Origin: Chlorobaculum parvum NCIB 8327
GTDB lineage: Bacteria > Bacteroidota > Chlorobiia > Chlorobiales > Chlorobiaceae
DNA length: 64,000 nt
Direction of reading: 5' to 3'
NCBI RefSeq assembly: GCF_000020505.1
Contig: NC_011027.1
Location: 1,038,001-1,102,000, forward strand
Part shown: piece after piece, positions 19,314 to 31,602 of the stretch
Numbering within the stretch: the first letter of the stretch is position 1
Layout: each line of letters opens with the position of its first letter
The notes under the pieces: generated by a model
The model's database searches: none
Told to the model about the DNA's origin: nothing
Seen by the model: the letters and a program-made list of their open reading frames with translations, nothing else
Made by a program: the position numbers and the translations under genes

Positions 19314-20267
19314 TTAAAACGCCTTCATCTTTTTGACCTCTTTCCGCCAGCAATGGAACAGGATGTGCCCGGCATAGCCAGCGCATTCAGTGCCGAGGAT
19401 GGCTCGCGCCTTTTCCTGTAGAATCCGGTAGTTCTTTTCAGTCAGGCTGCGGCGGGCTTCTTCAATGCCGAACCACTCCCAGAGGTACTGTTTTACATGC
19501 GTATCGATGGGGAACGCATCGAACCGGCCAAGCCCGAACAGGGCGATGCAATCGGCGATTTTGAGGCCGATTCCGCTGTGCACGCACAAGGTTTCGCGAA
19601 GCGTTTCGAGATCGCATTCGCCTGAACCAACACAGGCTAGCGCCAGCTTGCCAGACTCGAACGAACGGGCCATGGCGATGATGTTTGCAGCCCTAATCCG
19701 GTTGTTATTCGTGCATAATGCCAGCTCAGAAGGATCAGCAGAAGCAAGAGCTGACGGGGTAGGGAAGCCGTAGAAAACCATCTCGCCTTCCGGCGTCTCA
19801 AGCACAATCTTTTGCCCATACCGTTCGGCAATCATGGAGACCTGACGGCGAATCAGGTGCATTCCGATGCCTTGAGCGCACATGAAAGTGACCATGATTT
19901 CGAACGGCTCCTGCCGCATTACCCGAACGGATCGGTACGGTTTTACCATTCGCCATAGTTCCGGATAATCTCGCTGAAAATCTGATGAAAAGATGCTGTT
20001 TTCATCAATATCAAAAGCAAAATACCACCTAAAAAAATCACTAATTTGCAAGCAAAAAGCTTCTTTACTTTGGCTGAAAATTTCAAAAGTAGTGCTATCA
20101 ATACTGCGCAGTAAAAAGATTTTATTGTCGATTACTGTGGAGTAATAACCGCTAAAATTTTCTTTTTGAGACCACCTAAAACTTTGGCCACTGAACAGTG
20201 TTGCGTGTAAATCAAAGTTTCGATGAGATTTTATTATGGTTTTTGATAATTCTTTAGCGTCTGCCAT
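19314..20267 (-). CDS. ogg: OGG1-type 8-oxoguanine DNA glycosylase/AP lyase
   Basis: The 317-residue protein has an OGG1-like N-terminal domain with SGQSFRW, followed by the helix-hairpin-helix GPD core. HSGIGLKIADCIALFGLGR carries the candidate catalytic lysine, and FPIDTHVKQYLW the catalytic aspartate. It would remove 8-oxoguanine and nick the strand. The N-terminal third (about 19900-20267) is AT-rich compared with the rest, grading into the T-rich intergenic region upstream. That suggests drift or a recombination boundary. Confidence 0.87.
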   Translation of the reverse strand: MADAKELSKTIIKSHRNFDLHATLFSGQSFRWSQKENFSGYYSTVIDNKIFLLRSIDSTTFEIFSQSKEAFCLQISDFFRWYFAFDIDENSIFSSDFQRDYPELWRMVKPYRSVRVMRQEPFEIMVTFMCAQGIGMHLIRRQVSMIAERYGQKIVLETPEGEMVFYGFPTPSALASADPSELALCTNNNRIRAANIIAMARSFESGKLALACVGSGECDLETLRETLCVHSGIGLKIADCIALFGLGRFDAFPIDTHVKQYLWEWFGIEEARRSLTEKNYRILQEKARAILGTECAGYAGHILFHCWRKEVKKMKAF

Positions 20268-20974
20268 AATTTGTGTTCATAATTCTGGTATTTATTTGCC
20301 TAATGAATATTTAGACAAGTAATCTAACATCTTTAATTTGAATGACTTAAATTGATTTATCTCATGCTTATGTTATGTCTGTTTTTGGTGTAAAAATTTG
20401 GATAAATATTTCTTTAATCTGGTTTGTTTTGGCTTTTTTGGTGCTTAAAATTTTGTTTTTACTGATCTTGTATTGTTTTTTCATTACTCTATAATATTTG
20501 CTTTAAATTTGCTGATAATTTAATAAATTAATCCATTAAATTATTGTGTGTATAGTTGTTTTGTTTTGTCTTAAAGCGTGATTTTAATTTTTTATGGTTG
20601 TTTTTTATTTTCGGTTTTTGTTTTGTAAGTCGCCTTAATATGGTTGCTTTGGCGATTATAATAATGCTATTAATTCTTTTCGTTTTTGTTTATGAAGATT
20701 TGATGATTGGTGTGTTGGTGCTTTGAACGGTGATTTAAAAATTCAGATGCACCTGCACTTGATTTGCCTTTGAAAACGTCGATGAGAGTTGAATTGAGTT
20801 GATGAGGCTGGTTTTGTCTGTTCTTTTTTGTCAGCAGAAAATGGTTGAGTAATCGAGCTGAAGATTCGATGAAATCGGGGTATGGATGGGTTTAGGTTGG
20901 ATTTGCTTTTCATTTGATGCCGCGATTGAGTGGCAAAAAACTCGATAGCTGACTTAGGCTGCAAGGTGAGATTT
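20268..20974. other. T-rich, gene-free interval
   Basis: About 700 bases without a credible gene. From roughly 20380 to 20700 the plus strand is dominated by T with some G and very little C, unlike anything else in the window. A minus-strand open frame at 20743-20964 has no recognisable features. The interval borders the degenerate tRNA at 20975 and the restriction island. Confidence 0.6.
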
Positions 20975-21050
20975 GCACTCGCAGCACAGTTGGTAGCGCG
21001 ACTGATTTTTTGTTAGTGGGTTCAAGATTTGAGCCCTTGCGTGTGAGCCA
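20975..21050 (+). pseudogene. degenerate tRNA-like sequence (pseudo-tRNA)
   Basis: Exactly 76 bases fold as a tRNA ending in an encoded CCA. The acceptor GCACTCG (20975-20981) pairs at 5 of 7 positions with CGTGTGA, followed by G-CCA. The D arm is GCAC-AGTTGGTA-GCGC with A14, G18, G19 and A21 kept and one stem mismatch. The anticodon stem ACTGA/TTAGT encloses TTTTTTG (anticodon read TTT). The T stem CAAGA/CCTTG encloses TTTGAGC. Departures are C for U8, T for C56, T at position 37, and stem mismatches. The acceptor and GCCA end recall tRNA-Arg more than tRNA-Lys. A terminator follows. A decayed copy fits best; a divergent working tRNA is possible. Confidence 0.55.
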
Positions 21051-21057
21051 AACAACA

Positions 21058-21092
21058 AAAAAGCCTTACAGAACGTGCCTGTAAGGCTTTTT
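21058..21092. terminator. bidirectional terminator
   Basis: AAAAAGCCTTACA (21058-21070) is the exact complement of TGTAAGGCTTTTT (21080-21092) with a 9-base loop. It lies 8 bases after the tRNA-like sequence and before the hsdM fragment, which is read from the other strand. Confidence 0.88.
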
Positions 21093-21126
21093 CTCTTGGT
21101 GATTGATAGTTAGAGGTGGGTCTGTT

Positions 21127-21324
21127 TTATGCCTCGTTTCCCCCTAAGCTAACGGCTATTTGTCGGAAGCTGTTCAGGTCGGCTTCGATGTTTTCGATGA
21201 TCTCCGCCGCCAGCTCTTCTGGGTCGGGCAGGTTGTCGAGGTCGGAGAGGGATTGGTCTTTCAGCCAGAAGATGTCGAGGCTGGTTTTGTTTTTCATTTC
21301 CTTGCTTGTAAAGGGCTTAACCAT
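21127..21324 (-). pseudogene. hsdM 3' fragment
   Basis: The 65-residue frame contains SLDIFWLKDQSLSDLDNLPD followed by PEELAAEIIENIEADLNSFRQIA, which is the usual C-terminal end of one class of type I N6-adenine methyltransferases (HsdM). An in-frame TGA lies immediately before the first ATG, so the rest of the gene is gone. It lies on the strand opposite the intact hsdRMS genes and differs from the C-terminus of the intact HsdM, so it is the remnant of another system, not a duplication. Confidence 0.7.
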
Positions 21325-21481
21325 TCAGTATATAACAAGATGCTTGTGTTAGTAGTGCAAAAGTTATCAATGTCTCCTGAAACCTTTGCTAAGTACCTGG
21401 TTTCCTTATTGATTCACCTGTTGCGCGCAACTGATTCCCATCTTTTATCGGCTTGACGCAACAAGATTGAAGAGCGCTCTG

Positions 21482-23839
21482 ATGGATAAAAAGCAACTCT
21501 CCGAGCGGGACATCTGTACCAAATTTATCACGCCATCACTTGAGCAAGTGGGGTGGGACATCGCTACCCAGGTGCGCGAGGAGTTTCCGTTGACCAATGG
21601 TCGCATCATCGTGCGGGGCAGCGTGCATACTCGCGGCAGCCGCAAGCGCGCGGATTACGTGCTGTTTTACAAGCCCAACATTCCCATTGCCGTCATCGAA
21701 GCCAAGGATAACAAGCATTCGCTGGGCGATGGAATGCAGCAGGCTCTGGGCTATGCCGATTTGCTTCAAGTTCCTTTCGTCTTCAGCTCTAACGGTGACG
21801 GATTTCTGTTCCATAACAAACTTGCCCCTGACGGCATCATTGAGCGCGAACTTGCCTTGCATGAATTTCCTTCCGCCGAAACGCTCTGGCAGTGGTGGGC
21901 AGCGCACCGAGGACTTGACGATCGACAGAACAACCTCGTAACTCAGGACTATTTCAGCGACGGTTCCGGCAAGACGCCCCGATACTACCAGTTACTCGCG
22001 ATCAACAAAACTGTCGAGGCCATTGCAGGCGGGCAGAACCGCATCCTCTTGGTCATGGCGACCGGAACTGGCAAGACCTTCACCGCTTTTCAGATCATCT
22101 GGCGGCTTTGGAAATCGAAAGCGAAAAAGCGCATCCTTTTTCTTGCTGACCGCAACATTCTGGTCGATCAGGCCATTACCAACGACTTCAAGCCCTTCGG
22201 ATCGGCAATGACCAAGATTCAGAAGCGGCAGGCCGACAAGTCGTATGAAATCTATCTTTCCCTTTATCAAGCAGTTACGGGCAATGAAGAAGAGAAGAAT
22301 ATCTACAAACAGTTCAGTCCCGACTTTTTCGATCTGGTCATTATCGACGAGTGCCATCGGGGTAGCGCCGCTGAGGATTCGGCATGGCGCGAGATTCTGG
22401 AATACTTCAATTCGGCTACGCAGATCGGCCTGACTGCTACGCCGAAAGAGACCAAAGAGGTCTCGAACATCGACTATTTCGGCGAACCGATTTACACCTA
22501 TTCTCTCAAGCAGGGCATCAATGACGGCTTTCTGGCGCCGTATAAGGTGGTGCGTATCGACATCGACAAAGACCTCGAAGGCTGGCGGCCCGACAAGGGA
22601 ATGCTCGACAAGTACGGCAACGAAATCGAAGATCGCATTTACAACCAGCGGGATTTCGACCGTAGCCTCGTGCTGGAAAAGCGCACTGAACTGGTGGCCA
22701 GGAAGGTGAGCGATTTTCTGCGCCGTACCAATCGCTTTGACAAAACCATCATCTTCTGCGAGAACATCGAACACGCTGAGCGTATGAGGCAGGCGTTGGT
22801 GAACGAAAACAGCGACCTGGCCTCGAAGCACGACAAGTACGTCGTGCGCATCACCGGCGATAACGAAGAGGGCAAGGCCGAACTCGACAACTTCATCTTT
22901 CCCGAAAAAACCTTTCCGGTCATCGCCACCACCTCAAAACTCATGACCACCGGTGTCGATGCACAGACCTGCAAGCTCATCGTGCTCGACCAGCGCATCC
23001 AGTCGATGACAGAGTTCAAGCAGATTATCGGGCGCGGCACGCGCATCAACGAGGAGTTTGGCAAGTTTTATTTCACCATCATCGATTTCAAAAAGGCGAC
23101 CGAGCTGTTTGCCGACCCCGATTTCGACGGTGATCCAGTGCAGATATATGAACCACAAGCCGGCGACTCTCCCTTACCTCCCGATATTTCGGGCGGAGAG
23201 CCCTATCCGGAAGGTCAAGAGGATCAGGATTGGCCCGATTTACAGGATAAGCCTGTTACTGGCGGAGTGCGCCGCTATGTCGTCGATAATGTTGAAGTGC
23301 GGGTGGTTGCCGAGCGGGTGCAGTACTTCGACGCCAATGGCAAGCTCATCACTGAATCGCTCCGCGACTACACGCGCAAGGCGCTTGCCGGGGAGTTTGA
23401 ATCGCTCTATGACTTCCTCAACCGCTGGAACAGCGCCGAACAGAAGCAGGCGATCATCGACGAGTTGGCCGAACACGGCATCTTTTTCGAGGCGCTTGCC
23501 GACGAGATCGGGCGCAAGTCCGGTAAGTCCTTCGATCCGTTCGATCTCATTTGCCATGTAGCCTGGGACATGCCGCCGCTCAGCCGGAAGGAGCGAGCCG
23601 AGCAGGTCAAAAAGCGAAACTATTTCACGAAGTATGGTGAGGAGGCCCGCAAGGTGCTCGAAGCGCTTCTTGACAAGTATGCCGACGAAGGCATCGGCCA
23701 CGTCGAGGAGACGCAAATCCTTACCATTTCGCCGTTTACCGAAATTGGTACGCCAATGGAGATCGTGCGCTTTTTCGGCGGAGTGGATGGGTACCGCCAA
23801 GCGCTGCTCGATCTTGAGCATGAACTCTATTGCGCCTGA
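21482..23839 (+). CDS. hsdR: type I restriction endonuclease subunit HsdR
   Basis: The 785-residue protein has an N-terminal PD-(D/E)xK nuclease motif (D58, E73-x-K75), then an SF2 translocase: ATGTGKT at about 193-199, DECH at about 289-292, GLTATP soon after, and [12 protein letters not shown] near 520. It cuts DNA at a distance after ATP-driven translocation. The layout resembles the EcoEI-type R subunits. I chose the ATG at 21482 with GAAGAG 7 bases upstream; a TTG at 21467 would add five residues. hsdM follows after 27 bases. Confidence 0.95.
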
Positions 23840-23866
23840 AAACAACAACTTGACAGACAATCAGTA

Positions 23867-25333
23867 ATGTCTATCCAGAACCTCGTAAAATCCATACAGG
23901 ATATCATGCGCAAGGATGTTGGCGTTGATGGCGACGCTCAGCGCATCAGTCAGATTGTGTGGCTCCTTTTCCTGAAAATCTTTGATGACCGCGAGCAGGA
24001 GTGGCTGTTCACTCTGCCCGAATACCGTTCGCCACTGCTGCCTCATCTTCGCTGGAGCAACTGGGCCAAAGACCCGGAAGGTATCACCGGTGAGGAGCTG
24101 ATCGATTTCGTCAACAACGATCTTTTCCCCTCGCTGAAAAATCTCGCCACCACGCCTGGCGTTTCCTCGCATGGGCGCGTGGTTGGCTCGGTGTTCGAGG
24201 ATGCCTATAACTATATGAAGTCCGGTACGTTGCTGCGCCAGGTGATTAACATCATCGAGGAGGATGTGGACTTCAATACCTCTGGCGACCGGCATCTGTT
24301 CAACGACATTTACGAAAAGCTGCTCGCCGATCTGCAATCCGCCGGAAATGCTGGTGAATACTTCACGCCACGTGCGGTGACGCAGTTCATGGTGGACATG
24401 CTCGACCCGCAACTCGGCGAGTCTTTGCTTGATCCGGCCTGCGGTACCGGCGGCTTTCTCACCTGCGCCATCGAGCATCTGAACGAGCAGGTCAAGACCG
24501 TCGATGACCGCGAAAAGATTCAGGAGAGCCTGCACGGCGTAGAGAAGAAGCCCCTGCCGCACATGCTGGCCGTGACGAACATGATGCTGCATGGCATCGA
24601 CGTACCGACTAACATCCGGCACGATAATACGCTCAGCCGTCCGCTCAAGGATTACAGCCCGAAAGATCGGGTCGATCTCATCATCACCAATCCGCCGTTC
24701 GGGGGGATGGAAGAGGATGGCATCGAGAAGAACTTTCCCCGCCAGTACCAGACCCGCGAAACCGCCGACCTGTTTATGGCGCTTATCATGCACCTGTTGA
24801 AGCCCGATACCGGCAAGGCTGCCGTGGTGCTGCCGGACGGGTTCCTCTTTGGCGAAGGGGTCAAGACGACGCTCAAAAAAGAGCTGCTCGAATCGTTCGA
24901 TCTGCACACCATTGTGCGGTTGCCCAAAGGGGTGTTCAGCCCCTACACCAGCATTGCGACCAACATTCTGTTTTTCAAGAAGGGCGGGCCGACAAAAGAG
25001 GTCTGGTTCTTCGAGCATCCCTATCCGGAAGGGTACAAATCCTACTCCCGCTCGAAACCGCTGACTATCGCGGAGTTCGACCGAGAAAAGGCATGGTGGG
25101 GCGGAGCGTCGCGCAAAGGTCGCCAAACGACGGAGTACGCCTGGAAGGTGAGCGCGGAGGAGATTGTGGCGCGCAACGGCAACCTCGATTGCAAGAATCC
25201 GCACGAGGTCGAGGTGGTGCATGGTGATCCGGAGGAGTTGATGCAGGAGTATCATGGGATCGTCCGCCAGCTCGAAGAGGCGCAAGAGGCGCTGAAGCGC
25301 GAGTTGATCGATGCGCTGGAGGGGAGGGGATGA
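23867..25333 (+). CDS. hsdM: type I N6-adenine DNA methyltransferase subunit HsdM
   Basis: The 488-residue HsdM has an N-terminal helical domain, AdoMet-binding motif I DPACGTGGF (189-197) and catalytic motif IV NPPF (275-278). With HsdS it methylates adenine in the bipartite recognition site and protects host DNA. The hsdS start overlaps its stop codon by 4 bases. The C-terminus differs from the hsdM fragment at 21127-21324, so the two belong to different subfamilies. Confidence 0.96.
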   Translation: MSIQNLVKSIQDIMRKDVGVDGDAQRISQIVWLLFLKIFDDREQEWLFTLPEYRSPLLPHLRWSNWAKDPEGITGEELIDFVNNDLFPSLKNLATTPGVSSHGRVVGSVFEDAYNYMKSGTLLRQVINIIEEDVDFNTSGDRHLFNDIYEKLLADLQSAGNAGEYFTPRAVTQFMVDMLDPQLGESLLDPACGTGGFLTCAIEHLNEQVKTVDDREKIQESLHGVEKKPLPHMLAVTNMMLHGIDVPTNIRHDNTLSRPLKDYSPKDRVDLIITNPPFGGMEEDGIEKNFPRQYQTRETADLFMALIMHLLKPDTGKAAVVLPDGFLFGEGVKTTLKKELLESFDLHTIVRLPKGVFSPYTSIATNILFFKKGGPTKEVWFFEHPYPEGYKSYSRSKPLTIAEFDREKAWWGGASRKGRQTTEYAWKVSAEEIVARNGNLDCKNPHEVEVVHGDPEELMQEYHGIVRQLEEAQEALKRELIDALEGRG

Positions 25334-27066
25334 CGATGGATTTTCGGGACGGCGAAACATCGGTGGTTGAGCTGCTTGAGCGGCATTTCGAGGTGGCGTT
25401 TTCTGCGCCGGATGGGGTGAAGAAGCTGCGGGAGTTGATTCTGACGCTTGCGATGAAGGGCAAACTCGTGCCGCAGGATCCGAACGATCAACCGGCGAGT
25501 GAGATGCTGAAGGAGATTGAAGCTGAAAAACAGCGGTTGGTGAAAGAGGGGAAAATCAAGAATCCGAAAGCGTTACCGCCGATTACGGCTGACGATGTTC
25601 CGTATGAATTGCCGGATGGTTGGGAGTGGGTAAGGCTTGGTGAAATTACAGCCTATAACGGTAGAAAAAATATATCAGGAGATCAAATTGATCCAGATAC
25701 CTGGGTGCTTGATCTTGAGGATATTGAAAAGGATACTTCAAGAATTTTATATCGCGCGAAGTTCTCTGAAAGACAATCAAAATCAACAAAATCTACTTTT
25801 TTAAAAGGTGATGTGCTCTACGGTAAACTACGTCCATATTTGGATAAAATAGTTGTTGCTGATAGAGATGGGGTTTGTACTACTGAAATTGTTCCTATTG
25901 TTTCTTTCGTTGGATTGCATTCTGATTTTCTCAAATGGTTATTAAAACGTCCAGCATTTTTATCCTATGTCAATTCTTTGATGTATGGTGTGAAAATGCC
26001 TCGACTTGGAACGGATAATGCAGTGGCGAGTATTCATCCACTTCCACCACTTCCCGAACAACACCGTATCGTCGCTCGTATCGATGAATTGATGGCGCAT
26101 TGTGATGAGCTGGAAAAGCTGCGTGCGGAGCGGGAGCAGAAGCGCGTCAAAGTTCACGCCGCCGCAGTCAGGCAGTTGCTCGATACGACGGAGCCGGAGT
26201 CAAGCGCCAACGCATGGCAGTTCATCTCCCGGAATTTCCGTGAACTTTATAGCGATAAGGAAAACGTCGCCGAACTCCGCAAAGCCATTCTCCAGCTCGC
26301 CGTCATGGGCAAGCTCGTCCCGCAAGACCCGAATGATCCGCCTGCCTGTGAACTGTTGAAGGAGATTGAAGCTGAGAAACAGCGGTTGGTCAAAGAGGGG
26401 AAGATCAAAAAGCCGAAGGCGGTGTCGCCGATTAAGCCGGATGAAGTTCCGTATCCGCTGCCGGATAGTTGGGAGTGGGTGAGATTGGGAGACGTGATTT
26501 CTTATATGGATGCAGGTTGGAGTCCGAAGTGCGAAACTGGACCGGCAAGTGATTCGGAATGGGGAGTTTTAAAAACCACAGCGGTTCAAAAATTGGAATT
26601 CTTGCCGCATGAAAATAAGACTTTGCCTATAAAATTAACACCTCGACCAGAATATCAGGTAGAGGAAAAAGATATTTTGATTACTCGTGCAGGCCCAAAG
26701 AATCGAGTTGGTATATGTTGTGTTGCTACGTCTATAAGGCCTAAACTGATGTTATCGGATAAAATTATTCGGTTCAAAATCTATGGTGATCTGATTTCCC
26801 CGGATTATTGCGCTCTTTCTTTGAATACAGGATATTGTTCCGAACAAATTGAGATGTTTAAATCTGGTATGGCTGAGAGTCAAATGAATATTTCTCAAGA
26901 TAAGGTGAAACGTTTGTTGATGCTAATTCCCCCACTTCCCGAACAACACCGCATCGTCGCTCGCATCGATCAGTTGATGGCTTTGTGCGATACGCTGGAG
27001 CAGCAGATCGATGACGCCACCCGTAAACAAACCGAACTACTCAACGCCGTGATGACTCAGGTGTAG
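25330..27066 (+). CDS. hsdS: type I specificity subunit HsdS with two target-recognition domains
   Basis: The 578-residue product is two similar halves. Each begins with a conserved block (KGKLVPQDPNDQPA in half one and MGKLVPQDPNDPPA in half two, each followed by EIEAEKQRLVKEGKIK and WEWVRLG), has a variable recognition domain, and ends with LPEQHRIVARID plus a helical spacer. The two recognition domains set the two half-sites of the DNA target. They are AT-rich (about 25640-26020 and 26500-26930), unlike the conserved blocks. The start overlaps the hsdM stop; ATG at 25336 is an alternative. Confidence 0.95.
   Translation: MTMDFRDGETSVVELLERHFEVAFSAPDGVKKLRELILTLAMKGKLVPQDPNDQPASEMLKEIEAEKQRLVKEGKIKNPKALPPITADDVPYELPDGWEWVRLGEITAYNGRKNISGDQIDPDTWVLDLEDIEKDTSRILYRAKFSERQSKSTKSTFLKGDVLYGKLRPYLDKIVVADRDGVCTTEIVPIVSFVGLHSDFLKWLLKRPAFLSYVNSLMYGVKMPRLGTDNAVASIHPLPPLPEQHRIVARIDELMAHCDELEKLRAEREQKRVKVHAAAVRQLLDTTEPESSANAWQFISRNFRELYSDKENVAELRKAILQLAVMGKLVPQDPNDPPACELLKEIEAEKQRLVKEGKIKKPKAVSPIKPDEVPYPLPDSWEWVRLGDVISYMDAGWSPKCETGPASDSEWGVLKTTAVQKLEFLPHENKTLPIKLTPRPEYQVEEKDILITRAGPKNRVGICCVATSIRPKLMLSDKIIRFKIYGDLISPDYCALSLNTGYCSEQIEMFKSGMAESQMNISQDKVKRLLMLIPPLPEQHRIVARIDQLMALCDTLEQQIDDATRKQTELLNAVMTQV
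25476..25650 (+). repeat. hsdS conserved block, copy A (direct repeat with 26324-26490)
   Basis: This stretch encodes the repeated block before the first recognition domain. It aligns with 26324-26490 at DNA level, including an identical 20-base core in TTGAAGGAGATTGAAGCTGA-like sequence. A second repeated pair, CCCGAACAACACCG-CATCGTCGCTCG, lies at 26050-26098 and 26938-26984. Confidence 0.8.
26324..26490 (+). repeat. hsdS conserved block, copy B
   Basis: Second copy of the block that precedes a recognition domain, about 847 bases from copy A. Recombination between such copies can swap or delete recognition domains in type I systems. Confidence 0.8.
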
Positions 27067-27078
27067 GAGGGGAAAACT

Positions 27079-28977
27079 ATGCGCCTGACATCACTCTACA
27101 TCGGCCAATACAAAAATCTGCGGGATTTTTCCCTGAGCTTCGATGGCAGCAGTTTCATCGATGTCTTTGTAGGGAAAAACGGCACCGGAAAATCCAACCT
27201 GTTCGAGGCACTCATCGAGATATTCCGCCATCTTGTGGAGTACGATCGCGAAAAGGTTCCCTGCGATTTCAATTACCGTATCAAATTCGTGATTGATGAA
27301 AAAACAACCGAGATCGCATGGAACTCCGGTAAATTGATCATTGATGGTGAGGAACGGAGAACTGTGGGCAAAACACCGATGCCTGATAATGTGCTGATCT
27401 ATTACTCTGGTCATAATTATGCGGTATCCGACCTTGTGGAACGTTATGAAAAAGCCTTTCGTCGCCGACTCAAGGGGGCCAACATTGAAGACAATCGTCG
27501 CTTTATCAGCATTGGTCCGAAATACAAGTCATTGTTGTTGGCCGTGCTGCTTTCACAACCGGAAACGAACAAGGCCAGACGATTTATCATGGATAAATTG
27601 GGCATTGCAACGGTCGGCAAGGAACTCATTGTTGAATTCAGGCGGCCCGATTTTGCCAGAGGGCGCTTGAAAGAGCTTGGGGTTGATGGCATTGAGGCCT
27701 TCGATCCACGCACCCATTACTGGGGTACAGACGGTATTACACGCGAGTTCCTCAACAAATTAGCATCCTGTATCAAAGGCGAATTCAACCACTTTGATAT
27801 GTATAATCGTGGTAAGGATAGCTATCGCTTCAACATCAATCTTGATATCTTTAAGAAACGATTCAAAGATGATTCGGTATCGGAGATTTTCCGGCAGTTT
27901 GACAACCTCAAGACATTGGGAATGTTGGCAAACATCACGTTACGTCTGAAGTTCTCAAATGGTCGTAGCGGATTTATCTCCCATTTCAGCGATGGGCAAT
28001 TTCAGTCGGTTTACATCTATTCTATTATCGAATTGTTCAAGGATCGCAACTGCATTACCTTGCTCGACGAACCAGACTCATTTCTTCACCCCGAATGGCA
28101 ATACCAATTTCTCCAGCAGATCTTTGAGATTACCGATACTGCGGCAAAGAACAATCATGTGCTGATGAGCAGTCATAGTGCGGTTACCTTAATTCCTCAT
28201 GACAAGAAGAAAATTAAATTTTTCGATATCAAGGAAAGCCATGCAAATTGTTACGACTTACCAAAGGCAGTTGCCATCAAAAAGCTGAGTGCAGATATTA
28301 TCAAATATTCAGAGCAGGAACAGTTACTTAGCATCATCAATGCCATCCAGATTGAAAACAAACCGGTACTGTTCACCGAGGGCAGCACTGATCCGGTGAT
28401 TCTCAAGGTGGCATGGTACAAGCTGTATGACGTTGAGATGCCTTTCATCCCGTTTTATGCCTTCAGTTGTACCTACATCAAGCAGTTACTGACTGACGGT
28501 CGCATTCATGCTGAAATGGGTGGATTGCCGGTTTTCGCCCTTTTTGATTTTGACAAGGCCTATGATCAATGGAACGGATTGAATGGCTCCGTCAGTGAAG
28601 CCGATCCATTGAAAGGTATGATCAAGAAATGGGCTGAGGGTGAATCTTATGCTCTGATGTTGCCGGTGCCAGCAAATGTTGACATCCAAAAACAGGTCAT
28701 TCGAAATCCCACTACCGGTGAAACCTTCGGTGGCGACTCGTGCTGTGAGATAGAGCACCTGTTTTACGGTCTTGATGCAACAATGAATTATTACCAAAAA
28801 GAACCGTGTGTTGGCGGTAGCAAGATTGTGTTTAAATCAGACAGAGAGAAGACAGCATTTGCCAAAGAAGTCGTACCAAATCTCGATTCATCATGTTTCG
28901 AGGTCTTTCGTTCGATGTTTGAGTTTATCAAATCGAAATGTGCTGCCGAAGCAGATGGCGTGAAGATCGTGACATAA
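27079..28977 (+). CDS. OLD-like AAA ATPase with TOPRIM-type nuclease domain
   Basis: The 632-residue protein has an ABC/SMC-type ATPase: Walker A GKNGTGKS (32-39), signature-like SDGQF (304-308), Walker B LLDEPDSFLHP (328-338) and H-loop SSHS (364-367). The C-terminal part has TOPRIM-like residues: E435 in FTEGSTD, DFD at 490-492, and EIEHLF at 557-562. This is the arrangement of OLD-family phage-defence nucleases. It starts 12 bases after hsdS and should be co-transcribed. No GajB helicase or other known partner adjoins, so Gabija is unlikely. DNA nicking or cutting is inferred from the family; the trigger is unknown. Confidence 0.75.
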   Translation: MRLTSLYIGQYKNLRDFSLSFDGSSFIDVFVGKNGTGKSNLFEALIEIFRHLVEYDREKVPCDFNYRIKFVIDEKTTEIAWNSGKLIIDGEERRTVGKTPMPDNVLIYYSGHNYAVSDLVERYEKAFRRRLKGANIEDNRRFISIGPKYKSLLLAVLLSQPETNKARRFIMDKLGIATVGKELIVEFRRPDFARGRLKELGVDGIEAFDPRTHYWGTDGITREFLNKLASCIKGEFNHFDMYNRGKDSYRFNINLDIFKKRFKDDSVSEIFRQFDNLKTLGMLANITLRLKFSNGRSGFISHFSDGQFQSVYIYSIIELFKDRNCITLLDEPDSFLHPEWQYQFLQQIFEITDTAAKNNHVLMSSHSAVTLIPHDKKKIKFFDIKESHANCYDLPKAVAIKKLSADIIKYSEQEQLLSIINAIQIENKPVLFTEGSTDPVILKVAWYKLYDVEMPFIPFYAFSCTYIKQLLTDGRIHAEMGGLPVFALFDFDKAYDQWNGLNGSVSEADPLKGMIKKWAEGESYALMLPVPANVDIQKQVIRNPTTGETFGGDSCCEIEHLFYGLDATMNYYQKEPCVGGSKIVFKSDREKTAFAKEVVPNLDSSCFEVFRSMFEFIKSKCAAEADGVKIVT

Positions 28978-28994
28978 ACTGATTCGTTCCCGTC

Positions 28995-29639
28995 ATGCTC
29001 TACGACTATTGCGAAAGAACCGGCTCCGGCTTGTTCGATGAACCGGTCAACCTGCTGACGAACCTCTCGTTCATTGTCGCCGCCGCTTTTGTTTACCGTT
29101 TACTGCGCGATCGCGGTCAGTTCAATCGCGGCAATATTCTTCTTTTGACTCTGGTTGCGTTCATCGGGGTCGGGAGCACGCTGTTTCATTCATTTGCGAC
29201 TGAATGGGCCAGGCTGCTCGATGTGGTTCCGATCTTTTTGTATCAGCTCGCGTTTTTATGGCTCTACATGCAGCGGGTAGCCCGGCTCGGCACCTTTTCC
29301 CGTGTTGCGCTGGTGGGAGTGTTTCTGCTTGTCAGTCTGTACGCCTTGACGTTTAAAGGCTTGTTGAACGGCTCGGTGATGTATCTGCCTGCAATTCTGT
29401 CGGTTATGGCGGTTGCCGTCTTTCACTATTTCCGAAAAAAGATCGAGCCGATGCTGGGTTGGTATGCCTTGATCGTGTTTGCTCTATCGCTCTTCTTTCG
29501 CACGATTGACGCGGTTCTTTGCTCGGTTTGGCCACTCGGGACGCACTTTGTGTGGCATCTCTTGAATGGTGTGCTCTTATACCTCACAACCCGAATTATT
29601 ATCGTGAATTCCGGGTTACAGCAGGCAGATCGTTCATAA
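28995..29639 (+). CDS. ceramidase-like (CREST superfamily) membrane protein
   Basis: The 214-residue protein has about seven membrane helices and the residue pattern of the alkaline-ceramidase/CREST group: YCERTG at the N-terminus, HSFATEWARLLDVVP in the middle and GTHFVWHLLNG near the end. These supply the conserved Glu, Ser, Asp and His residues used for zinc binding. Bacterial members may be lipid amidases; no substrate can be named. It follows the OLD-like gene by 17 bases, so it appears to belong to the same transcript. Its base composition is closer to the chromosome than that of the OLD-like gene. Confidence 0.7.
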   Translation: MLYDYCERTGSGLFDEPVNLLTNLSFIVAAAFVYRLLRDRGQFNRGNILLLTLVAFIGVGSTLFHSFATEWARLLDVVPIFLYQLAFLWLYMQRVARLGTFSRVALVGVFLLVSLYALTFKGLLNGSVMYLPAILSVMAVAVFHYFRKKIEPMLGWYALIVFALSLFFRTIDAVLCSVWPLGTHFVWHLLNGVLLYLTTRIIIVNSGLQQADRS

Positions 29640-29667
29640 AAGAGCTAACGCGAGCTTTATCAGAACA

Positions 29668-30291
29668 ATGGAGAGTGTATTCGGTAGTGATCAGTCTGTG
29701 CAGAAGGCCCGGTGGCAATTGTTGTATTCGGTGGCGATTCTGATGGTGGTTCCTGCCTTGATCTACTTCGATGTTATTCCTTACGGATGGCGCATTTATA
29801 TGCTTCTTGCACTGGGCGTCATCTTTTCCTTCCTCTCGTATCTCCGTGGGTACACGCTGAATGAGCTTGGGTTCAGAAAGGACAATATTCGTAAAGCCTT
29901 TCTGATGCAGGCTCCGTTTCTGATGCTGTTTTTGTTCGTTCTCTCCTTTGCCCACAGGCTTGGTTTTGTCGAACGGGAATTCCTGTCGAAAGAGCTGTTT
30001 CTGGTGTTTTATGTGTTTATCTCCGCTCCTTTTCAGGAGTTTGTCTATCGCAGTTATATGTTCGCGCTGCTGAAGCGTTGCGGCTGGGAGAACCGGTTCG
30101 TGTTCGTCCTTTTCATGGCGCTTCCGTATGTGTTTGTCCACATCATCTATCACAATGCGTTGACCTTGATTTTTACCCTGATTGTCGGCGTGTTCTGGTC
30201 GTACAGCTACATCAGGCAGGCGAACCTTTTTGCCGTTTCATTTTCTCACGCCGTGATCGGGTGCGTTGCCCTCTTTTTGGGCGTTGTGTAA
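29668..30291 (+). CDS. CPBP-family membrane protein (CAAX-protease-like)
   Basis: The 207-residue protein is mostly membrane helices and has the CPBP motifs: FQEFVYRSY (motif 1, usually EExxxR; here the first Glu is Gln), FVHIIYHN (motif with His) and a later helix. Such proteins are intramembrane glutamic proteases or scaffolds. The Q at the first position may reduce activity. It lies 28 bases after the ceramidase-like gene and ends the co-directional run. Confidence 0.7.
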   Translation: MESVFGSDQSVQKARWQLLYSVAILMVVPALIYFDVIPYGWRIYMLLALGVIFSFLSYLRGYTLNELGFRKDNIRKAFLMQAPFLMLFLFVLSFAHRLGFVEREFLSKELFLVFYVFISAPFQEFVYRSYMFALLKRCGWENRFVFVLFMALPYVFVHIIYHNALTLIFTLIVGVFWSYSYIRQANLFAVSFSHAVIGCVALFLGVV

Positions 30292-30433
30292 CCCGTGTTA
30301 AGGAGCTGGTCGGGTTTTGAACGCGTCTCCATTTCTCGCCACCCAGTGTCCGAACTTCACCAGTTAGGTCTGCGCTTTGGAATTCATTATACTCCCGCGC
30401 ACTGTTTCTTTTCAATTTCTCGATTTGACCGCT

Positions 30434-30775
30434 ATGAGCACTCTGCCAAACTGCCCCAAATGCAATTCCGAATACACCTACGAGAACGGCACGTTGCTGG
30501 TATGCCCCGAGTGTGCCCATGAATGGAGCCCTGCCGAGGCTGCTGGCGCGACAGAAGGAGAGCGGGTCTGGAAGGATGCGAACGGCAATGTGCTGCACGA
30601 TGGCGATACCGTGACGGTGATCAAGGATCTCAAGGTTAAAGGAGCCTCTTCGCCGATCAAGGGCGGCACGAAGGTCAAGAACATTCGCCTCGTAGTGGGT
30701 GATCACGACATCGACTGTAAAATCGACGGCTTCGGCGCGATGCAGTTGAAGTCGGAGTTCGTCCGCAAAGCCTAA
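30434..30775 (+). CDS. yjdM: PhnA/YjdM-family zinc-ribbon protein
   Basis: The 113-residue protein opens with a zinc ribbon (CPKC and CPEC, 12 residues apart) and continues with the conserved [23 protein letters not shown] and [13 protein letters not shown] segments of the PhnA/YjdM family. This is full length for the family. Its function is not well established; the historic link to phosphonates is weak. An in-frame extension to 30377 is ignored because the zinc ribbon then would not begin near the start. Confidence 0.9.
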
Positions 30776-31083
30776 GCGGCGTTTCAGTGATTGGCGGATT
30801 CCTTTTGTGTTTTTTTTTGCGTAAAGAACTTTACAAGGCAAAGTAAAGGCTCTTGTCAAGAAAGAAGAAGGAGTTGTACAAGCGTCCGAAAACAATTGGT
30901 TGTAAAGAAATCCAGAGAAGGGAGGGCTCTTCTCGATGAAGCGAAGCCTCAATACTCTTTAGAGGCCATCACGTATTGATTCAGACCCCGACTTGTCGGG
31001 ATCTGAATAAGATTCAAAGCTAAGACGGGATTGCTGTTGAGAGTCTCTTTTGGACAGGCTCAGTCCCCAATTGTCCCAACGGT
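30776..31083. other. gap between yjdM and the ATC-hydrolase-like gene
   Basis: No gene is seen in 308 bases. The interval contains CTTTACAAGGCAAA at 30829-30842, which recurs at 50917-50930 after prc, and a hairpin at 30979-31008. Confidence 0.5.
30979..31008. terminator. hairpin in convergent intergenic region
   Basis: ATTCAGA-C-CCCGA (30979-30991) pairs with TCGGG-A-TCTGAAT (30996-31008) with one internal mismatch and a 4-base loop. Two genes converge here, so it may act as a terminator or mRNA 3'-end stem, but no long T run follows. Confidence 0.5.
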
Positions 31084-31602
31084 TTACGTTGCAGTGCCAG
31101 ATTCGGGGGTTGCCGGGCGCTCATACTTGAAGATGCAGACCGGGCAGCCGAGTGCCTGGCGGCAAAGGATTTCGCCGCTCATTTCCGGGAACGCTCGTCG
31201 GGTAGCCTCCATATCCAGCTCGCAGACCACATGGCACGGAGTGTCGAATCCGTACTCCTTGCTCACCTCCAGCCACGGGCAGATGCGCTGGATTTCCAGC
31301 ACGGCATCGATGCCTTTGTTTGAAATATCCACCACGTCCATTTCCATTCCGATGCTTTCAAACTGCGGAATGGCTTCGCGGAACGCTTTGGCGAGGGTGG
31401 GGCGGGCAAGGAGCGGGCCCATGCGCTGTTTCTGCACTTCCGGAAACCCTTCGAGCATGGTTTCCCAAGCGGCAGATTCTCCAAGTTTCTGGCTCAGTTC
31501 ACGGTAGCGGGCGAACTTTTTGCGCGCCGATTCGATAAGTTCCTTGTGGGCGTTTTCCATAACTTGTTTGGCAAGTTGGCTGTTCAAAGGATTGTGCTTC
31601 AC
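31084..31602 (-). CDS. L-2-amino-thiazoline-4-carboxylate (ATC) hydrolase-like protein
   Basis: The 172-residue protein ends with a pattern typical of the ATC-hydrolase domain family: ICPWLEVSKEYGFDTPCHVV, then CELD, and a final GCPVCIFKYE. The cysteines and the terminal FKYE-like strand match that family's C-terminal half. The N-terminal half is helical. The named activity was shown for only one family member; many anaerobes carry relatives of unknown role. The first in-frame start is GTG at 31602; ATG at 31560 is an alternative. It is divergent from the next gene. Confidence 0.6.
   Translation of the reverse strand: MKHNPLNSQLAKQVMENAHKELIESARKKFARYRELSQKLGESAAWETMLEGFPEVQKQRMGPLLARPTLAKAFREAIPQFESIGMEMDVVDISNKGIDAVLEIQRICPWLEVSKEYGFDTPCHVVCELDMEATRRAFPEMSGEILCRQALGCPVCIFKYERPATPESGTAT

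Follow-up and report, generated by a model that had tools for sequence, protein, structure and literature searches.

A decayed tRNA-Lys(CTT) copy beside a type I restriction system of Chlorobaculum parvum, probably a pseudogene of a duplicated secG-tRNA-terminator segment

At the edge of a restriction island of Chlorobaculum parvum NCIB 8327 lies a sequence that resembles a tRNA but departs from a functional one at several positions, which raises the question of whether it is the remains of a tRNA gene, the scar of an integrated element or a divergent RNA with a role of its own. To understand its origin, a 64,000 nucleotide stretch of the genome (contig NC_011027.1, positions 1,038,001 to 1,102,000; in the following the window, to which coordinates refer unless stated otherwise) was analyzed together with related genomes of the genus Chlorobaculum. 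The degenerate tRNA-like tract comprises 76 nt (20975-21050, plus strand) and ends with an encoded CCA. These are exactly the coordinates proposed in the initial annotation, which had also called the bases C8, T37 and T56 correctly. ARAGORN called no tRNA in the window, and a search of the window with Rfam at gathering threshold yielded nothing at 20975-21050. With a relaxed threshold, the Rfam tRNA model scored 23.6 bits at 20975-21047 (cut-off 29), compared with 75.1 bits for the intact copies of the genus including the parent gene described below. A match to the icaR 5' UTR family, which at 31.5 bits fell below the cut-off of 88, was treated as chance, as were the other sub-threshold Rfam matches. 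In a blastn comparison, the tract aligned to the tRNA-Lys(CTT) gene of its own genome over 119 nt with E = 9.4e-17, and local alignment to the intact tRNA reached a score of 72, while 2000 shuffled sequences averaged 13.0 and did not exceed 25, demonstrating that the resemblance to a tRNA is not due to chance. Thus the shuffling check that had been proposed for a tRNA origin was passed clearly, and of the suggested comparison with tRNA-Arg and tRNA-Lys genes the guess of lysine proved right.

The parent is an intact tRNA-Lys(CTT) gene of the same genome (C1:753791-753866), which is called by ARAGORN and lies 305 kb from the tract. When the own genome (2,289,249 bp, one contig) was searched, the other copy was detected at 753790-753909 with 75% identity over 119 nt, and besides the tract itself only this intact gene and the palindromic terminator matched the block. 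The intact gene follows secG, a position which is conserved across the genus. Homology was found to exceed the tract first described and covers at least 20961-21092, comprising the last bases of secG, the entire tRNA and a terminator. Upstream of the tRNA, a remnant of the secG 3' end with a short spacer (20961-20974, plus strand) reads GCAAGGTGAGATTT as compared to GCAAAATAAGATTT in relatives (11/14), and blastn matches with several relatives start at 20961. The tRNA part (20975-21050) carries 16 substitutions and has 4 of 21 pairs broken, but the CCA is kept. It is followed by an intrinsic bidirectional terminator (21058-21093), whose 9-bp stem, GCCTTACAG/CTGTAAGGC, is perfect and lies between runs of A and T; the fold of this hairpin has a z-score of -5.2. 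As the sequence of the terminator is closer to that of three relatives (G002, G003 and G016) than to that of the own intact copy, the donor of the block is ambiguous. Searches of genome contigs for an identical 29-nt part of the pseudogene, and of viral contigs for part of the tRNA 3' half, found neither.

Judged from these alignments, the tract is very probably a non-functional tRNA-Lys(CTT) pseudogene, which would have arisen when a segment with secG tail, tRNA and terminator was duplicated or translocated, and would then have decayed neutrally. It combines significant homology to a tRNA gene with broken structure and identity elements and a score below the threshold of the gene caller. Like the tRNA pseudogenes and tRNA gene remnants of other bacteria, it can still be recognised as a degraded version of a gene that persists intact elsewhere in the genome, but in contrast to these it carries the tail of the upstream gene as well as the terminator and is located 305 kb from its parent. 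The view of the initial annotation that the tract is a decayed tRNA copy is borne out by the missing ARAGORN call, the difference between 23.6 and 75.1 bits, the 16 substitutions and the four broken pairs.

The copy is located in a variable region. Its conserved left neighbour, ogg (19314-20267, minus strand), encodes an OGG-like DNA glycosylase and is present in 20 of the 21 genomes of the genus. Between ogg and the copied block lie about 700 bp of non-coding DNA (20267-20970) with 32% GC and a skew towards T and G; similarly AT-rich stretches with little sequence similarity to this one follow ogg in G003 and G014. On the other side, a truncated hsdM gene, of which about 55 codons at the 3' end are left (21127-21290, minus strand), runs towards the terminator; at the nucleotide level it is 85-90% identical to hsdM at four loci in three relatives. 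The break in hsdM is abutted by a short dispersed repeat of about 64 bp (21290-21353), which occurs in several relatives with 83-92% identity and in two cases is placed just upstream of a restriction or helicase gene. A type I restriction system follows with intact frames for hsdR, hsdM and hsdS (21467-27066, plus strand). Its hsdS harbors an internal direct repeat of 78% identity (25438-25643 and 26287-26492), as is typical of type I specificity subunits, and the island ends with genes for a ceramidase-like and an Rce1-like membrane protein (28995-30291). The placement of the tract beside hsdM debris and an hsdRMS island, as originally described, was therefore accurate.

From ogg to the conserved downstream gene (20267-31100), the accessory and defence content varies across the genus. 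Beyond ogg, G020 carries hsdRMS, G016 an HsdR remnant, and G003 a PemK/MazF-like gene together with an RNase II-like gene (rnb2). The hsdR-hsdM pair of the window is 85% identical to a system of G002, which is followed there by rnb2 and is situated near a contig end; this appears to be the same locus. By blastn, neither a tRNA nor a tRNA-Lys homologue was detected in 79 ogg-locus sequences of relatives, a set that contains duplicates and in which several sequences end at contig ends, that of G012 at ogg itself; the species of the window is represented by one genome. Conservation in relatives had been named as an argument against a pseudogene; no tRNA was present in the ogg-adjacent sequences examined, which favours a pseudogene. 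A specific report of the ogg-adjacent locus was not found in the literature searched.

It had been suggested that the tract might be the scar of an integrated element. According to this explanation, a mobile element targeting tRNA-Lys(CTT) had taken along a copy of the tRNA at which it was formerly attached, brought it here with the restriction genes as cargo, and decayed thereafter. The tract shares with the attachment remnants of tyrosine integrases that a tRNA copy lies beside defence genes and that its parent is targeted in the genus. Indeed, tRNA-Lys(CTT) is a genuine integration target in Chlorobaculum. In G005, a tyrosine integrase gene directly follows it (L088:1283-2491), and another contig carries the 3' half of the tRNA separately, together with a terminator (L092:4609-4700) and close to a gene encoding a DUF3987 protein. 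In G007, tRNA-Lys(CTT) occurs twice in intact form, the second copy having a terminator of its own and lying 2.4 kb downstream of the first (L091:7756-7831). In G009, a type I restriction system lies directly downstream of the gene. The arrangement in G005 probably represents an element integrated at tRNA-Lys(CTT). The two genes of G007 are separated by a PAS/histidine-kinase-like gene, and the acceptor bases of the second copy differ. In G080, the intact gene is followed after about 0.8 kb by a 5' fragment of tRNA-Lys(CTT) (L093:5758-5816).

Integrases which target tRNA genes duplicate the 3' part of the tRNA only. The copy in the window, however, extends over the 5' half of the tRNA into the secG tail, which argues against an origin by such a duplication. 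Further, a search with the integrase of G005 matched nothing related in the window. At up to 3 mismatches, the tRNA 3' end was not detected a second time in the window, as would be expected of an att core direct repeat at the other end of an element; a strongly decayed repeat could escape this limit. The genome-wide search with the block revealed only the intact gene and the palindromic terminator. Unlike integrase attachment remnants, the window has a whole tRNA with upstream DNA, and neither a relative of the G005 integrase nor a paired repeat was found. We consider this origin, which would call for an element that carried a whole tRNA, rather unlikely. What stands of the suggestion is that the parent tRNA serves as an integration target in the genus, which favours it indirectly; that the copy itself is the scar of an element would fit poorly with its complete tRNA and secG tail, and neither a relative of the G005 integrase nor a second att copy was found in the window.

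A second explanation connects the copy with rnb2 by linked events in the same lineage, through which the pseudogene would have reached the ogg locus from that of tRNA-Lys while rnb2 would have moved from the ogg locus to that of tRNA-Lys. In G003 and G016, rnb2 is present at the ogg locus, and in G002 it lies beside the same type of hsdRMS, whereas in the genome of the window it directly follows the intact tRNA-Lys(CTT); a short stretch which follows rnb2 in relatives persists in the window at 30798-30845. However, rnb2 has a patchy distribution (5 of 21 genomes), for which independent gain and loss would be enough, and where rnb2 now lies, its flanking sequence, including that upstream, does not match the ogg locus. 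Because of the unmatched flank and the patchy distribution, an exchange is a suggestion only, and we regard it as unlikely. In a further reading, the loci after tRNA-Lys(CTT) and after ogg would swap cargo, and the tRNA-terminator block would travel as the edge of a defence cassette without an integrase; this appears distinctly improbable.

The pattern of decay was compared with that expected under neutrality. Relative to the intact gene of G003, the tract shows 16 substitutions, 11 of which are transitions, and no indels. The pairs 1-72, 5-68, 12-23 and 53-61 are broken and pair 30-40 has become G-U, while the anticodon stem is kept. The bases T8, A37 and C56 have been replaced, and the anticodon is TTT in place of CTT. 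None of the 16 substitutions is a compensatory pair change. When 16 random substitutions were simulated, 5.0 ± 1.7 pairs were broken (P(≤4) = 0.39); the broken pairs thus show no sign of structural constraint, although with 16 substitutions only this is a weak test. The decay of the tRNA part matches what neutrality would produce. The intact cloverleaf and the tertiary bases T8 and C56 of a functional tRNA-Lys are missing from the tract, and a tRNA that lacks T8, A37, C56 and the 1-72 pair would not be expected to fold and be charged normally. Minimum-energy prediction returned a cloverleaf neither for the pseudogene nor for the intact gene and is uninformative for either.

The divergence of the copy amounts to 0.23-0.25 substitutions per site. 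Between the genome of the window and its nearest relative, G012, the difference at fourfold sites is 0.41, i.e. 0.20 per lineage. As both values are similar, the duplication would be about as old as the split from G012. At position 15, the tract has G where the own intact gene and G012 have A, which fits an origin before the G012 split or from another lineage; T48 is common to the tract, the own intact gene and G012 and would fit an origin in the common stem. Each of these is a single site and weak evidence.

The non-translating tRNA-Gly of staphylococci is an altered extra copy of a tRNA. A comparable special role, as a divergent functional tRNA or a regulatory tRNA-like RNA, had been suggested for the tract and could be read from its full length without indels, the intact CCA and terminator, the retained anticodon stem and the residual covariance model score, but with the broken pairs and lost tertiary bases, no compensatory change, decay as under neutrality and no tRNA in the ogg-adjacent sequences examined in relatives, the copy is not comparable to the staphylococcal one beyond being an altered extra copy, the suggestion finds no support, and such a role is highly improbable.

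Taken together, these results are best explained by a pseudogene. A segment with the tail of secG, the tRNA and the terminator would have been copied into the variable defence locus downstream of ogg, its source being the same lineage or a close relative. Presumably this happened by recombination or translocation and not by the duplication of a tRNA 3' end that integrases ordinarily bring about. Because the intact gene remains, the tRNA part would have been free of constraint and may have decayed neutrally. The terminator hairpin is still perfect, which may be due to chance or to a continuing use in stopping transcription on either strand.

The tract is an ordinary genomic fossil. Its recognition explains an oddity of the sequence and should prevent its annotation as a tRNA. 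In Chlorobaculum, the loci after ogg and after tRNA-Lys(CTT) are both sites of turnover of defence genes and other accessory genes, and the copy described here provides an example that a tRNA copy can reach a variable locus together with its upstream tail and its terminator.
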